Part shown: positions 22,240 to 59,010 of the stretch, one piece after another | Layout: each line of letters opens with the position of its first letter | Numbering within the stretch: position 1 is the first letter of the stretch | Source of the DNA: Anaeromicrobium sediminis | GTDB lineage: Bacteria; Bacillota; Clostridia; Peptostreptococcales; Thermotaleaceae | DNA length: 64,000 bases | Assembly (NCBI RefSeq): GCF_002270055.1 | Contig: NZ_NIBG01000022.1 | Coordinates: 1-64,000 of the forward strand | Direction of reading: 5' to 3' | Program-made: the position numbers and the translations under genes | Notes under the pieces: model-generated | Told to the model about the DNA's origin: nothing | Database searches by the model: none | The model's input: the letters and a program-made list of their open reading frames with translations, nothing else

Positions 22240-22397
22240 AATTATAAATTTTCAAAACTGTAGATAAGTAAAAAAATAAGGGGGTGTGGGGGAAGGATTC
22301 CTCTGCCTATTTAAAGAAAGGTGTTCAGATTGCGAGAGCAATCGTCGAAGGGAACCATAGGGTTCCATAACGAATCATACGAAGTATGACTTTTTAT
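22240..22397 (+). ncRNA. Candidate structured RNA / intergenic element, copy 2 (long form)
   Basis: The gap 22159-22531 has no ORF. After the LysM terminator, the first 33 bases repeat 5435-5467 with one mismatch. Then come a G-rich stretch and three successive hairpins: GATTGC-GAGA-GCAATC (22329-22344), GGAACC-ATAG-GGTTCC (about 22352-22367) and CATAC-GAA-GTATG (22376-22388), followed by CTTTTTATAT. The last hairpin and tail also match copy 1. This could be a structured RNA with a terminator or a non-autonomous repeat. I cannot match it to a known family. Confidence 0.4.
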
Positions 22398-54957: not shown

Positions 54958-55254
54958 ATGATTGGTGATATCAAAATAAAGGTGGAGGCCTACAAGGGTG
55001 TGATCGGAGAATACAGAGAAGAAAGGGAGAAACTAATAAAGACACTCTCAGAAAAAAAGAAAGAATATTATGTACTAGAGATTAGAAAGAGGATAGAAGA
55101 AGCTATAAGTGGTAGTGATAGATTAGAGAAAGTATCTGAGGAGTATAAGCATATTAGAGATGAAGTATCTAAAATAGAAAATCATATTGATGAACTTGGA
55201 AAGGTTATTAAATCTATTGAAAAGGAATTAAACGGTATACAAAAATTTATTTAA
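54958..55254 (+). CDS. Hypothetical coiled-coil protein, 98 aa
   Basis: This 98-aa, almost entirely helical protein is rich in Glu, Lys and Ile, with heptad-like spacing across residues 10-95 (EEREKLIKTLSEKKKEY, VSKIENHIDELGKVIKSIEKEL). No signal peptide or membrane segment. I recognise no family. GGGGATGGGTG precedes the ATG. It is divergent from the ABC-F gene; a remnant of a permease lies after it on the opposite strand. Confidence 0.65.
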   Translation: MIGDIKIKVEAYKGVIGEYREEREKLIKTLSEKKKEYYVLEIRKRIEEAISGSDRLEKVSEEYKHIRDEVSKIENHIDELGKVIKSIEKELNGIQKFI

Positions 55255-55274
55255 AGGGGAGAAAAAGCTACCCT

Positions 55275-55557
55275 TTATTTTTTTTTTCGTTGAAAAATCA
55301 AATAACATAGGAAATAAAATATTATTAAGCTTAATCCAGCAATTAGTCCAGAACCTTGTCCTGGAACTAAAGGCATACTTACTATAATTACTATTAAAGC
55401 TATTATGGCTATCCATGAAGTATAAGGATACCAAGGGAGTTGACAGTTACCGGTAGGTGGACAACCCTTTAACTTTCTGAATTTATTATGAGTTAAAACT
55501 ATTACTAAATAAGTAAATAGTAATGAAAAACCTCCAGAGCTAAGTGAAGAATAATTT
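55275..55557 (-). pseudogene. Amino acid permease remnant (C-terminal fragment)
   Basis: Reading the minus strand gives an open stretch of about 93 codons with no usable start, ending in TAA at 55277-55275. It encodes two membrane helices and a loop: FSLLFTYLVIVLTHNKFRKL, a segment with CPPTGNCQLPWYPYTSWIAI, then a helix ending LILFYFLCYLIFQRKKK. This is the C-terminus of an APC-superfamily amino acid permease. A stop codon directly precedes the homologous region and nothing upstream encodes the missing 10 helices, so it is a deletion remnant. 55558-55790 holds no gene. Confidence 0.75.
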
Positions 55558-55790
55558 TAGTTTAAATATACATTAGTATTCACATAAAGGTGGTTTTGTA
55601 TTCTAATAAAAAAGATAGAAGTAAGTATCTGTCAATATAGAGAGAATATATGCAATATGTGAACAAATGTGTTTCGTTGCTATAAAATTTAGAATTTATG
55701 AAGGAAATATAAAAAAAAAGTCGAATATTATTTAGTGTGATTTTTTTCGATTAACTTTTAAATTTTCTTGATGAAGAGGGGAAAGAAAAT

Positions 55791-56432
55791 ATGGAGAACT
55801 TAAATATAGAACAATTAATATTACATATACAGGAATTTATAAACAGTATCCCAGAGGTTATATCATCTAAGGTTGTATTAGATGATGAAAAGGAGCATAT
55901 TGTTGAATTACATATATTGGCTACTAATAAAAGAAATGCCAAGCAAATATCTAGGGATATACAATCCACATTAATGGCTAAATTTAACATCAAAATAGAT
56001 CACAAGAAAATAAGTATAGCCCAAATAGACACTAAGGAAGATGAAGAATTAAATTCTAGATTAGAAGTTGGGTCTATAGCCTACTCTGTAGAAGGAAATT
56101 TAGTAGAAATAAAAGTTGTCCTTAAAAAGGGTGAAGAGGAAAGTTTGAGCGTAGCAAGTGGTACTAATGCTACTAGAAATGTATATAGGTTAGTGGCACA
56201 AGCCACATTAAATTGCGTCCATGAATTTTTAGGTGTGGACAATGTGTTTATAGTTGAGGATATAGAAAAGTCAATTTTAGCTAAAAAAGAAATTATAAAT
56301 GTGGCAATTACATTTATATCTGATAGGGGAGAGGACTTACTAGTAGGTTCTTCTATGGTGAGAAAAAATGAGTATGAGGCAGTAATAAAAGCCACATTAG
56401 ATGCCATAAATAGAAAAGTAGGAAAGTTTTAA
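55791..56432 (+). CDS. Conserved hypothetical protein, 213 aa
   Basis: This is a soluble 213-aa protein with two halves. Residues 1-85 (IEQLILHIQEFINSIPEVISSKVVLDD...LHILATNKRNAKQISRDIQSTLMAKFNIKIDHKKISIAQI) resemble a domain I recall from Actinobacteria and Firmicutes of unknown function; residues 95-210 form a second alpha/beta domain (ATRNVYRLVAQATLNCVHEFLG...EAVIKATLDAINRKVGKF). No catalytic motif is visible. GAGGGGAAAG precedes the ATG. It lies directly upstream of the structured leader and HD-GYP gene and may be co-transcribed. Confidence 0.7.
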   Translation: MENLNIEQLILHIQEFINSIPEVISSKVVLDDEKEHIVELHILATNKRNAKQISRDIQSTLMAKFNIKIDHKKISIAQIDTKEDEELNSRLEVGSIAYSVEGNLVEIKVVLKKGEEESLSVASGTNATRNVYRLVAQATLNCVHEFLGVDNVFIVEDIEKSILAKKEIINVAITFISDRGEDLLVGSSMVRKNEYEAVIKATLDAINRKVGKF

Positions 56433-56443
56433 ATTATGCTTAT

Positions 56444-56658
56444 ATTTTAGGTCGGCATATTTAGATGAAATACTTATACATATGAATAGCGAAGCGAATA
56501 TAGGCCTGTGAAGTTAGCGTAGCCGCAGAGTATCTGTGCAAAGGGGGCCATATCCGTGAAAAACAGAGTATTAGTGTTATTAATGTCTTTATTATCATTA
56601 GTATTAGCTGGTGGAGCAAGCTTCAGCTGGAGATAATTTAATTTTACCGACCTAAAAT
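56444..56658 (+). ncRNA. Structured leader with 12-bp enclosing inverted repeat ahead of the HD-GYP gene
   Basis: ATTTTAGGTCGG (56444-56455) and CCGACCTAAAAT (56647-56658) are perfect inverted repeats around about 190 bases. Inside, CGAATATAGGCC (56495-56506) can pair with GGCCATATCCG (56546-56556) around a junction that includes CGCAGA-GTA-TCTGTG (56524-56538). The inner stem reaches the ribosome binding site (GGGGG) and GTG start of a 26-codon ORF at 56556. It matches no riboswitch class that I can recall, including c-di-GMP-I. It could be a novel leader RNA or a small inverted-repeat element. Confidence 0.45.
56556..56636 (+). CDS. 26-aa hydrophobic peptide upstream of the HD-GYP gene
   Basis: GTG start with AAAGGGGG nine bases upstream. 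The 26 codons give a basic N-terminus (MKNR), a hydrophobic core (VLVLLMSLLSLVLAGG) and the tail ASFSWR. It looks like a signal-peptide-like precursor or a leader peptide; there is no cysteine for an AgrD-type thiolactone. Codons are typical of the genome (TTA, AGA). It ends 40 bases before the HD-GYP gene and lies within the inverted-repeat structure. Coding is probable; function unknown. Confidence 0.5.
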   Translation: MKNRVLVLLMSLLSLVLAGGASFSWR

Positions 56659-56676
56659 TATATAAAGGAGATAAAA

Positions 56677-57945
56677 ATGAAGGAGTTACCAACAAGGCTA
56701 AAATTATATGTGATTTTCATAAGCGTCTTAGGACTTGTATCATTATACTTTAGTGTCAATTCAATTACTGTTGATATATTGCCTAAAGTTATTTTTTTTA
56801 TTGCTTTAGGTATAATAGCAGAATCTCTAGCAATAAAGGTTAATGGAACAATCGCGATTTCGGTGGGATTTGGAATTGGGTTAGCGTCTATGTTAATATT
56901 TCAATCTAATATAGTGGTGATAATCGGATTTTTATCTATGCTTTTATTTATAGAAAAAGATAAGGGGAAAATATATTGTATTTTAAATACTCCGCTGTAT
57001 AAGAGGATATTTAATGGATCAGCATATTCTATATCATTACTTGTTGCTACTTGGATATACATATATATAAATAGTTTTGTATCTAATGTCAGGATTGCTG
57101 ATTTTAATATAATAGGAATAATAATGGCTGTAACAGGCTATTTGATTATAAATGTATCAATTTTTACGTGTTTAATGTCTATACTAGAGAATAAACCTCC
57201 TACTATATTTGCTAAGGAGAGTTTGTGGGTTGTATTTAATCTTATAGCAATATCTCCATTAGGGATTTTTATAGCTGTTGTCTATAATTCTTACGGCATG
57301 TTTGGAGTAATATTATTCTTCGGTCCATTATTGTTGGCAAGACATTCATTTCAACTTTATATAAACATGAAACACATGTATATGGAAACTATTAAGTCCT
57401 TATCTAATGCCATGGAGGCAAAGGACGAGTATACTAATGGCCATTCCTACAGGGTTGCAGATTATGCCACTAGTATAGCTAAATGTATGGGTCTTAATAG
57501 TAGCAAAGTGGAAAAAATAAGAATAGCAGCCATATTGCACGACATAGGTAAAATTGGAATACCAGATAATATACTAAATAAATGTGGAAAATTAGATTAT
57601 GAAGAATATATAGAGATACAAAAACATCCATTTATAGGGTGCAAAATCCTATCAGAAGTAGATAGTTTAGCCGAGGTGGCAAGGATAGTTAAACATCACC
57701 ATGAAAGATATGATGGAAAGGGTTATCCTGATGGTATTGGAGGAGATGAGATTCCCATAGAATCTTATATATTAGCTGTGGCAGATGCCTTTGATGCTAT
57801 GACATCAGATAGACCATATAGAAAAGCAATGGACAAATTAAAAGCATTAAGTATTGTAGAAGAAGAATCGGGAACACAGTTCCATCCAAAAGTGGTAGAA
57901 GCTTTTGTAAAATATTCAAATAACTTTAAGGTGGAAAATGTATGA
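56677..57945 (+). CDS. Membrane HD-GYP domain c-di-GMP phosphodiesterase
   Basis: This 422-aa protein has an N-terminal membrane domain of about seven hydrophobic helices (residues 8-225), then a cytoplasmic HD-GYP domain (about 235-415). Key residues: HSYRVADYA, the HD pair in ILHDIGKIGIPDNIL, HHERYDGKGYPDGIGGDEIP (HHExxDGxGYP), and VADAFDAMTSDRPYRKA. The motif set is complete, so c-di-GMP hydrolysis is expected. Its membrane domain is a possible sensor. Translationally coupled to the DUF5317 gene (4-base overlap). AAAGGAG precedes the ATG. Confidence 0.93.
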   Translation: MKELPTRLKLYVIFISVLGLVSLYFSVNSITVDILPKVIFFIALGIIAESLAIKVNGTIAISVGFGIGLASMLIFQSNIVVIIGFLSMLLFIEKDKGKIYCILNTPLYKRIFNGSAYSISLLVATWIYIYINSFVSNVRIADFNIIGIIMAVTGYLIINVSIFTCLMSILENKPPTIFAKESLWVVFNLIAISPLGIFIAVVYNSYGMFGVILFFGPLLLARHSFQLYINMKHMYMETIKSLSNAMEAKDEYTNGHSYRVADYATSIAKCMGLNSSKVEKIRIAAILHDIGKIGIPDNILNKCGKLDYEEYIEIQKHPFIGCKILSEVDSLAEVARIVKHHHERYDGKGYPDGIGGDEIPIESYILAVADAFDAMTSDRPYRKAMDKLKALSIVEEESGTQFHPKVVEAFVKYSNNFKVENV

Positions 57946-58505
57946 TAGTAGAAGCAGTACTAGTTCCCTTAGCAATAGGGAAAATACGAGGGGGCAAGTT
58001 TAAAAACTTAGAAAAGGTTTATATTGAAAAGTGGTATTTATTAGTTTTAAGTGCTCTTATAGAAACTATAGCATCTTTTATACGAATGAGACAAATAGAA
58101 CCTTTGTGGCAATTTTTAGATAAAAATATAATACTTATAGATATAATAATATATTCCCTCATAATAATGACCATTTATGCTAATAGAAACAAAAGGGGAT
58201 TTAAATTAATATTAATAGGAGTAATATTAAATGGATTAGTAATATTTGCAAACAATGGGAAAATGCCTGTGGATGTGAGCTCTATAAAGGAAATGATTTC
58301 CCGGGAAAGTCTTAACTTATTAAATGATGGAAAAGATTTAGTCCATACTGCAACAGGACCTAATACTAAATTAGAATTTTTAGCAGATATTTTACATTTA
58401 AAAAAGCCTTATCCATTTCCTAAAATATTGAGTCTAGGAGATATATTTATGATAGGGGGGACATTTTTATTTATACAGGATAAAATGATTATAGAAAGTG
58501 ACTAA
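57942..58505 (+). CDS. DUF5317-family membrane protein
   Basis: This 187-aa protein has about four transmembrane segments (VEAVLVPLAIGKI; YLLVLSALIETIASFI; IILIDIIIYSLIIMTIYA; FKLILIGVILNGLVIFANNG) and a C-terminal part with NGKMPVD, TATGPNTKLEFLADILHL and PFPKILSLGDIFMIGGTFLFIQ, typical of DUF5317. Role unknown. The ATG overlaps the HD-GYP stop by four bases; the coupling suggests a shared complex or pathway. Confidence 0.85.
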   Translation: MIVEAVLVPLAIGKIRGGKFKNLEKVYIEKWYLLVLSALIETIASFIRMRQIEPLWQFLDKNIILIDIIIYSLIIMTIYANRNKRGFKLILIGVILNGLVIFANNGKMPVDVSSIKEMISRESLNLLNDGKDLVHTATGPNTKLEFLADILHLKKPYPFPKILSLGDIFMIGGTFLFIQDKMIIESD

Positions 58506-58520
58506 TTTAGTCACTTTTTT
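58497..58520 (+). terminator. Terminator of the HD-GYP/DUF5317 operon
   Basis: AGTGACTA-ATT-TAGTCACT with six T; the stem includes the DUF5317 stop codon. Confidence 0.85.
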
Positions 58521-58900
58521 ACTTAGTAGGAGATTATAGGAAAAAATATAAAGGACTAAATGACGAAAAGTACAAATTTAGGCAAAAATATATAAAATAG
58601 GACTTATTTCTGTGGATATAATAATAGAAATGTGGTAAAATAATAAAGTCTTTAGGGTAGACAAATCTAGAACAAAATATATAGCAAGTATATGACTGGG
58701 ATGCTAAGCAATAGGCATCCTCTTTTTTTTTGCAAGAAAAACAAGAATTACAAAATGCTATAAGTAAATTTTAAATATAGACAATGGGGCCAAAAGGGCC
58801 TCTTTTTTTACGAAAAAAGAAAGGATTCAGGACAAATGAACTATCCGTGATGCACCCTAGAAATTGGAAAGTTATTATGATAATATAAAGATGCCAAAAT
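58521..58900 (+). other. Intergenic region with two extra terminator-like hairpins (possible small RNAs)
   Basis: No supported ORF. A TATAAT at about 58617 is followed by a terminator at 58699-58731 (GGATGC with GCATCC, then nine T), which could give a small RNA of about 105 bases. A second hairpin (GGCC-AAAAG-GGCC plus seven T, 58786-58809) follows. The yjdF riboswitch begins at about 58901. Confidence 0.4.
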
Positions 58901-58980
58901 AAAAACACAGTTCTGGTTGGTAGTCCAGACCTACACTCACGTGTAGCAGTAACCTTCCCCCTTTGGGTCGTCCGTTTTTG
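58901..58980 (+). promoter_or_regulatory. yjdF riboswitch (azaaromatic-responsive RNA)
   Basis: It lies directly upstream of a yjdF gene. Outer pairing AAAAAC (58901) with GTTTTT (58974) closes the structure. Hairpins TCTGG-N8-CCAGA and CTACAC-TCAC-GTGTAG follow, then the conserved AACCTTCCCCCTTTGGG segment. This matches my memory of the yjdF motif, which binds planar azaaromatic compounds. CCCCTTTG at 58958-58965 is the exact complement of CAAAGGGG (58995-59002), the yjdF ribosome binding site, so control is probably at translation. Confidence 0.8.
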
Positions 58981-59010
58981 GTAAGTAAATATTTCAAAGG
59001 GGATGACATT

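Follow-up and report, generated by a model that had tools for sequence, protein, structure and literature searches.

A conserved RNA with an embedded hydrophobic peptide ORF upstream of an HD-GYP phosphodiesterase gene in Anaeromicrobium sediminis and other Clostridia

What role can be played by a very short hydrophobic reading frame which is enclosed in an inverted repeat directly in front of a gene for c-di-GMP breakdown? The question is raised by a locus of Anaeromicrobium sediminis in the window, i.e., the whole stretch of 64,000 nucleotides that was analysed (contig NZ_NIBG01000022.1). Here, a module of about 215 nt, consisting of an RNA and a peptide ORF, is placed between a gene designated gene A and the gene of a membrane HD-GYP protein (Table 1). 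An earlier note on this DNA had described a perfect 12-bp inverted repeat and a 26-codon hydrophobic ORF with HD-GYP and DUF5317 genes directly downstream; all of these were found in place.

Table 1. Features of the module and its neighbours in the window
Feature	Positions	Strand	Remarks
Gene A	55791..56432	+	213-aa protein; directly 5' of module
P1 5' arm, outer long-range stem	56444..56455	+	ATTTTAGGTCGG; 11 nt past gene A stop codon
Single-stranded motif AGCGNAGCG, near-invariant	56488..56496	+	conservation over 80 distinct rows
P2 5' strand	56498..56505	+	A56502 bulged in window
P3 5' strand	56506..56510	+	
UAGCG of P3 loop, near-invariant	56515..56519	+	
P3 3' strand	56524..56528	+	
Conserved AG 3' of P3	56529..56530	+	A 1.00, G 0.96
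Peptide ribosome binding site AAAGGGGG	56540..56547	+	3' end within P2
P2 3' strand	56547..56553	+	
Peptide ORF MKNRVLVLLMSLLSLVLAGGASFSWR	56556..56636 incl. stop	+	GTG start, 26 codons
P1 3' arm	56647..56658	+	CCGACCTAAAAT
HD-GYP ribosome binding site AAAGGAG	56664..56670	+	just 3' of P1
Membrane HD-GYP phosphodiesterase	56677..57945	+	HD and GYP residues conserved
DUF5317 membrane protein	57942..58505	+	model: five long helices

The inverted repeat and known RNA families

The two arms of the repeat form the helix P1, which encloses a loop of about 210 nt with the entire peptide ORF inside. The window has one perfect 12-bp repeat with at least five G/C and a loop of 100-250 nt, where 20 local shuffles gave 0.05 on average. 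When the GC condition is dropped, the window still has one such repeat and the shuffles have 2.2, so the repeat alone is only mildly unusual. Folding of the window's copy of the element as a single sequence gave no significant gain over shuffles (z -0.92). A promoter scan was uninformative, with 26 sites against 21.9 in shuffles, and a terminator scan of positions 55250-58700 gave a single site on the minus strand (57871-57883) against 1.1 in shuffles. An intrinsic terminator was also considered and rejected: a T-run follows P1 in some lineages only (e.g., L058 and L088) and is absent in the window.

Comparison of the window with Rfam 15 (4227 families) gave no match in the module; at E up to 5, only mir-71 appeared (E 2), on the other strand. 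Among the relatives, 15 loci yielded two Rfam matches, both outside the module, and eight further loci searched at E up to 1 yielded none. The earlier note knew of no riboswitch or peptide family that fits, and this agrees with the absence of matches at threshold in Rfam, Pfam and NCBIfam. Since the window's copy folds no better than chance and the module lacks a family match, the case rests on comparison between genomes.

Known RNAs were recognised elsewhere in the DNA studied. An azaaromatic (yjdF) riboswitch (RF01764, 91.9 bits) lies at 58889-58991 of the window before a DUF2992 gene, which is a known arrangement, and a Clostridiales-2 RNA (RF02937, 67.7 bits) lies at 22272-22355. In the locus of Geosporobacter subterraneus (L110), a raiA RNA and a c-di-GMP class I riboswitch occupy positions 1220-1757, about 2.2-2.8 kb upstream of gene A, the riboswitch being at 1672-1757.

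Distribution and helices of the RNA

The family was sampled by 16 genomes including the own one, using a DUF5317 protein search and then tblastn on the surrounding stretches. Five other genomes carry HD-GYP beside DUF5317, and in all five the leader and the peptide are directly upstream, with gene A before them. Gene pairs of this kind lacking both stems and peptide, named in the earlier note as evidence against the leader, were sought, and all five genomes have both. The nine other family genomes with a DUF5317 match showed no such HD-GYP next to it, and the RNA models found no match in them. The covariance search proposed earlier was carried out with a model of the core (R1) built from the five relatives with the window excluded; it detects the window independently at E 2.8e-8. 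In 297 genomes of the order, R1 gave matches at E 0.01 or better in 28. One of these (L072, genome G143) was dropped as a module; the match is inside an unrelated coding region, which we take to be aspartokinase-like by its sequence. A second model (R2) was based on 26 loci with the window included. In the order it matches 35 of 393 genomes, and in the class sample 41 of 391, i.e., about a tenth. There is nearly always one match per genome, with two in G181. In the own genome the module is single-copy: the next-best R1 matches have E 6.1 and 8.0. The repeat was also sought there at many unrelated loci, the earlier sign of a mobile element; the 241-base element has one full-length match and the core model one.

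An independent sample was obtained by fetching loci with the gene A protein alone (best 80 of 576 relatives). R2 matches 74 of these best 80 at E up to 5, on the coding strand in all; 51 matches are at E 1e-4 or better, and 23 are weaker (up to E 4) yet situated in the expected interval. In L175, the match is behind the second gene A copy. Of the six loci without a match, L115 and L160 end at a contig edge, L160 showing P1-like sequence and the AGCGAAGCG motif before the edge. In L179 (Symbiobacterium MAG) and L178 (Fimbriimonadia MAG), the AGCGGAGCGG motif and the peptide are recognisable by eye, the tail being long in L178. The remaining two, L147 and L188, are without HD-GYP behind gene A on intact contigs and are also without the module (n = 2). 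HD-GYP follows gene A in 71 of the best 80 loci, and the other nine are seven contig ends plus L147 and L188. DUF5317 is behind HD-GYP in 62 of these 71 loci, and one of the nine exceptions is a contig end. Single loci vary in gene number: gene A is doubled in L175, the clusters of L175 and L189 contain two successive HD-GYP ORFs, and L031-L035 have two tandem DUF5317 genes after HD-GYP, of which the window has one.

In the class sample, gene A was found in 46 of 391 genomes, including all 41 module-positive ones; the other five show the core and the peptide on inspection, with R2 at E 0.002-0.02 when those loci only are searched. Conversely, in 55 of 57 loci anchored on the RNA, the upstream ORF has an end like that of gene A. 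The two exceptions are L074, which is truncated at the contig start, and L107, which has a disturbed reading; the genome of L107 (G739) has a partial match to gene A there. Among the matches listed, the nearest named relatives by gene A are Geosporobacter (a member of Thermotaleaceae), Anaerosolibacter and Thermotalea. Some module-bearing contigs are labelled as Sumerlaeota, Actinomycetota or Fimbriimonadia, all of them MAGs in which a binning error is possible. The module is thus fixed between the same two genes across many families.

The conserved fold consists of three helices: the outer P1, the inner P2 and the hairpin P3 atop P2, followed by the ORF within P1. Pairing in P2 and P3 and base conservation were counted in an alignment of 81 loci (80 distinct rows) matching the model at E 0.01 or better, with more divergent loci outside it. 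Standard pairs fill 95.3% of cells, 12 of 13 pairs are changed on both sides, and none of 500 shuffles equals any of five measures; these values come from an alignment fitted to the model and are biased in favour of the structure. Sliding the partner columns by 1-3 lowers the pairing to 29-50%. The same count in a 26-row alignment gave 92.9% paired cells, double changes in 10 of 13 pairs and again 0 of 500 shuffles; this alignment was fitted to a P2-only model with P3 not imposed, the P3 pairs being picked by eye on it. In the unpaired AGCGNAG, the columns A, G, C, G, A and G are conserved at 1.00 (80 distinct rows), and the following C at 0.80. AGCGNAG (except N), UAGCG of the P3 loop and AG after P3 range within 0.96-1.00, in rows selected by the model. 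The module therefore has the covarying helices and conserved unpaired bases that are looked for in riboswitches.

P1 falls outside the covariance models and was scored separately, by the strongest helix that the two flanks can form. At most 1 of 40 shuffles equals this helix in 50 of the 54 RNA-anchored loci with a complete peptide (the other three of the 57 are cut by contig ends); a convincing P1 was not found in L074 (cut by the contig start), L098, L105 and L106. In the set anchored on gene A (best 80 of 576), at most 2 of 40 shuffles are as good in all 71 scored loci. These are the loci with a scored peptide among the 74 matching ones; the peptide start was chosen wrongly in L118 and internally in L176. 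The sequence of P1 varies between lineages, and the arms nevertheless fit each other. Matched arms have a median score of 33.5 against 17.0 for mismatched arms (97 loci, 3271 mismatched pairs), each 5' arm being set against the 3' arms of a random third of the other loci. Loci with identical peptides were collapsed for this comparison, and L118, L074, L176 and L175 were dropped. In 84 of the 97 loci, the own arms beat 95% of the sampled mismatched partners. Seven of the 13 loci below this mark still score at least 24.5, and the few partners that outrank them presumably are close relatives sharing their arms; the score is 23.5 in L129 and L163, and L079, L098, L105 and L106 are at chance.

The compensatory changes that were to be sought in the stems are therefore seen in P2 and P3, and the matched arms speak for P1. 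A three-way junction, also suggested earlier, did not hold: there is no covarying third arm in the consensus tested. The closing stem had been said to overlap the ribosome binding site and start codon of the peptide. The 3' end of this site (AGGAGG in many relatives) is indeed paired, in P2 and not in P1, whereas the start codon, two bases 3' of P2, is unpaired in this model. Inspection by eye showed a weak or reshaped P2 in Alkaliphilus-type, Thermoanaerobacter and Desulfosporosinus lineages, and AGCG-type units are repeated in Desulfosporosinus loci. Repeated AGCGNANCGG-like units were noted in L180, L184, L186 and L179 (Desulfosporosinus, Symbiobacterium), which suggests multiple binding sites for one factor.

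The geometry was measured in 66 of the 74 loci of the gene A sample (best 80 of 576); three lacked a full peptide, three were dropped by hand, and two with a P1 score below 24 were excluded. The median length of the module is 211 nt. Median spacings are 7 nt from the gene A stop to P1, 8 nt from P1 to the HD-GYP ribosome site and 10 nt from the peptide stop to the P1 3' arm, the last being 12 nt or less in 42 of 66 loci. In Thermoanaerobacter (e.g., L126), the P1 3' arm takes in the peptide stop codon. These spacings indicate that P1 joins the gene A stop with the HD-GYP start site and is within the range of disturbance by a ribosome ending the peptide. In some loci, gene A and P1 are up to 93 nt apart, and this speaks against a coupling role in every case.

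Among known systems, the Downstream-peptide motif senses glutamine. It is likewise a conserved RNA before a short peptide ORF (PMC2864571); for the module, no match was obtained among the 4227 families of Rfam. In the odc1 (uORF-25-1) motif of alpha-proteobacteria (PMC8632094), a short conserved ORF has its ribosome binding site covered by a stem. This motif resembles the module in the structured RNA over this site and in a mostly constant downstream gene, and differs in organisms, gene, structure and the length of the peptide (11 aa). Riboswitches for c-di-GMP of classes I and II would make sense before a c-di-GMP phosphodiesterase gene, yet the module has no Rfam match. No such motif was found in the titles and opening parts of abstracts of the open-access papers listed, nor by a few terms in the texts of PMC11109978, PMC8632094, PMC6429828 and PMC2864571. 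By analogy, the module would work like known RNA elements controlling short ORFs, yet it is outside every family tested. A new leader RNA, as the earlier note had supposed, is strongly supported by the covariation, the near-invariant unpaired bases, the fixed position and the absence of an Rfam match.

The peptide and the neighbouring proteins

Among six family members, the peptide ORF has a pN/pS of 0.235, and the two shifted frames have 1.95 and 1.81. Start and stop codons are conserved and the substitutions follow a protein-coding pattern, as is expected of a functional upstream ORF. The selection check proposed for the 26-codon ORF hence came out in its favour, and, judging by its codon changes, the peptide is a real gene product under purifying selection.

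The 101 unique peptides comprise 21-34 residues. A typical one has a basic start, a hydrophobic helix and L-x-L-A-G-G-A, followed by a variable tail of mostly 4-5 residues, which makes it a sequence of the export or membrane type. K or R is found within the first six residues in 92 of the 101, a hydrophobic stretch of 15 residues in 100 and W somewhere in the tail in 79. A small residue occupies the putative -1 and -3 positions in all 101, this site pattern being imposed by the search. Tail lengths depend on the rule, since the search picked the site by tail or by last position. The tail has five residues in 95 of 101 peptides when the small-residue site nearest to a five-residue tail is chosen; with the last site chosen, it has five in 71 and four in 19 of the 95 peptides that fit (six were left out). 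These 95 peptides carry 2.4-3.7 bits at -7 to -1, the last positions being partly set by the anchor, and 1.0-1.2 bits in the tail except for 2.1 bits at +4 (W in 57 of 95). The final residue is highly variable. Peptides of Alkaliphilus-type loci have 21-22 aa and no basic start or LAGGA, and in one lineage the LAGGA region is replaced. A tie between the loss of adjacent DUF5317 and these 21-22 aa peptides was considered and rejected: in G049 and G118, such peptides occur although DUF5317 lies a short way behind HD-GYP. A DUF5317 gene is present somewhere in all 18 genomes checked.

No Pfam or NCBIfam match was found for the window peptide, and no significant NCBIfam match for 54 peptides of the RNA-anchored loci. 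Below the level of family membership, Phr_nterm (TIGR04429) is matched by 11 of the 54 (best E 0.047), PhrK (NF038040) by nine (best E 0.019) and NprX by three (best E 0.03). Models unrelated to pheromones match equally, namely PID_CTERM in three of 54 (best E 0.004) and LptM in seven (best E 0.079), so the Phr-type matches may only reflect the hydrophobic leader. Phr precursors pair with a Rap-type receptor. They resemble the peptide in being short, with a signal-peptide-like start and a tail of about five residues, but the matches are weak and the neighbours here are HD-GYP and gene A, not such a receptor.

Distances between peptides were compared with those between the neighbouring proteins by partial Mantel tests in 47 non-redundant loci of the 57, with the other parts removed. 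For the peptide, r is 0.212 (p 0.001) against the HD-GYP membrane domain and 0.196 (p 0.001) against DUF5317; no correlation was found for the catalytic domain (0.066, p 0.153) or for gene A (0.094, p 0.073). When the peptide was split in 46 loci, the signal for the HD-GYP membrane domain was 0.244 (p 0.001) for the leader and 0.093 (p 0.037) for the tail; the leader correlates with DUF5317 at 0.161 (p 0.013). Such tests overstate significance on related sequences, and the correlations are therefore a hint that the peptide may co-evolve with the HD-GYP membrane domain.

The proteins encoded downstream are uniform. HD_5/HD-GYP was found in all 51 proteins tested (57 RNA loci minus the contig ends L053, L064, L070 and the redundant L078, L079, L085), and 13 of them match MASE9 too. 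The catalytic residues H288 D289, H341 H342, G349 Y350 P351 and D370 are invariant in the 51 sequences. The short ORF thus has a consistent downstream gene, as upstream ORFs of regulatory function do. The DUF5317 model has five long helices and a pLDDT of 91.6. As to a known peptidase or exporter, comparison of this model with the PDB gave nothing below E 0.001, the best match being at E 4.3, which excludes nothing, and no paper on DUF5317 was found among the open-access papers searched.

The gene A protein has no Pfam or NCBIfam family at threshold. In its AlphaFold2 model (pLDDT 89.6, pTM 0.60), the C-terminal half aligns with 3f6h_B at Z 10.7 over 117 residues (rmsd 3.0) and is predicted to form two beta-beta-beta-alpha units, as in the LeuA_dimer/citramalate-synthase allosteric domain. 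At the sequence level, Pfam LeuA_dimer is matched by six of 49 gene A members (best E 0.0021). In VIA-align 2, the N-terminal part aligns with PrgK (Z 8.5) and the MamM CTD (about 8), which may mean a common arrangement only. Foldseek also returned dsRBD and Pur-alpha chains with low TM-scores. Going by its modelled fold, the gene A protein is at least as close to a metabolite-binding domain as to an RNA binder. With a C-terminal half modelled in a LeuA/citramalate-synthase-like fold, it is a candidate metabolite sensor, or the candidate binding partner of the RNA.

Possible working of the module and other readings

The most likely reading is an unreported RNA of translational control, together with a peptide that functions in the membrane or after export. 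Within the cluster gene A - peptide - HD-GYP - DUF5317, a control module made of RNA and peptide, chromosomal and present in single copy, is given a probability of about 0.5. The four genes would be carried on one shared transcript, on which the AGCG strands and P3 form a putative binding site for a factor, either the gene A protein or a small ligand. Binding of this factor would decide whether P2 hides the start site of the peptide. Because P2 engages the ribosome binding site of the peptide, the module is most simply read as a translational switch between a closed loop with the peptide off and an open loop with the peptide on. With P2 and P1 closed, the peptide would not be made; some 15 nt across the base of P1 would then separate the gene A stop from the HD-GYP ribosome site, a distance that would favour coupled translation. 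With P2 open, ribosomes would translate the peptide, terminate, reach and open the P1 3' arm, and the output of HD-GYP would change; both the trigger of the switch and the direction of this response are conjectural. The peptide itself would most likely go to the membrane and act on the membrane parts of HD-GYP and/or DUF5317. Tentatively, a leader RNA, probably read by gene A, may meter an exported or membrane peptide sensed by the adjacent HD-GYP, i.e., RNA-gated peptide signalling through c-di-GMP.

The other readings differ mainly in what they assign to the peptide. It could be a small membrane protein, a regulatory subunit of HD-GYP or DUF5317 whose L-x-L-A-G-G-A face packs on their helices. 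The nearly universal hydrophobic stretch, the small-residue motif and the correlation of the leader with both membrane partners fit this somewhat unlikely reading, which is weakened by the loci where DUF5317 is not behind HD-GYP and by the caveats of the Mantel tests. The alternative of an exported pheromone would make the peptide a precursor with a signal peptide; its C-terminal five or so residues would be set free and perceived by the membrane domain of HD-GYP, so that cell density or confinement could set c-di-GMP, while the RNA would only meter the precursor. It draws on the basic start, the hydrophobic core, L-A-G-G-A as the putative cleavage site, the short tail with low information apart from +4, the weak Phr_nterm, PhrK and NprX matches, and the tracking of the HD-GYP membrane domain beyond the catalytic domain, gene A and DUF5317. 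However, PID_CTERM and LptM match as well, the correlation is weak, prone to false positives and located more in the leader than in the tail, and some lineages lack both the basic start and LAGGA. Pheromone genes are not usually known as one copy in a fixed cluster, which counts against this reading, and it is regarded as rather improbable.

A leader peptide acting purely in cis is decidedly unlikely. It would open P1 and switch HD-GYP by metabolite-responsive stalling of the ribosome, and the released peptide would have no role. In its favour, the P1 3' arm is within the reach of a ribosome stalled at the stop codon in 42 of 66 loci and Trp is common in the tail; residues near the stop are poorly conserved except for the Trp position, and the replacement of the LAGGA region in one lineage also speaks against it. 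The mRNAs of type I toxins such as hok and AapA1 likewise fold from 5' to 3' round a small hydrophobic ORF, which lends something to the view that the locus is an ordinary inverted repeat, a mobile element or a toxin cassette. This view is barely credible: mobile or multi-copy occurrence was not observed, given the copy number and the fixed place, and the window sequence as a query found no match in plasmid or phage collections.

If this RNA-gated peptide signalling is real, it would represent a four-part signalling cluster common to Clostridia and found in MAGs labelled as other phyla. The module adds to c-di-GMP signalling an RNA class of wide conservation, a peptide family and the gene A protein family, none of which has a match at threshold in the libraries compared. 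A long-range helix round a whole peptide gene, kept between the same two genes over such distances, calls for a mechanism linking the translation of a membrane peptide to the breakdown of c-di-GMP.
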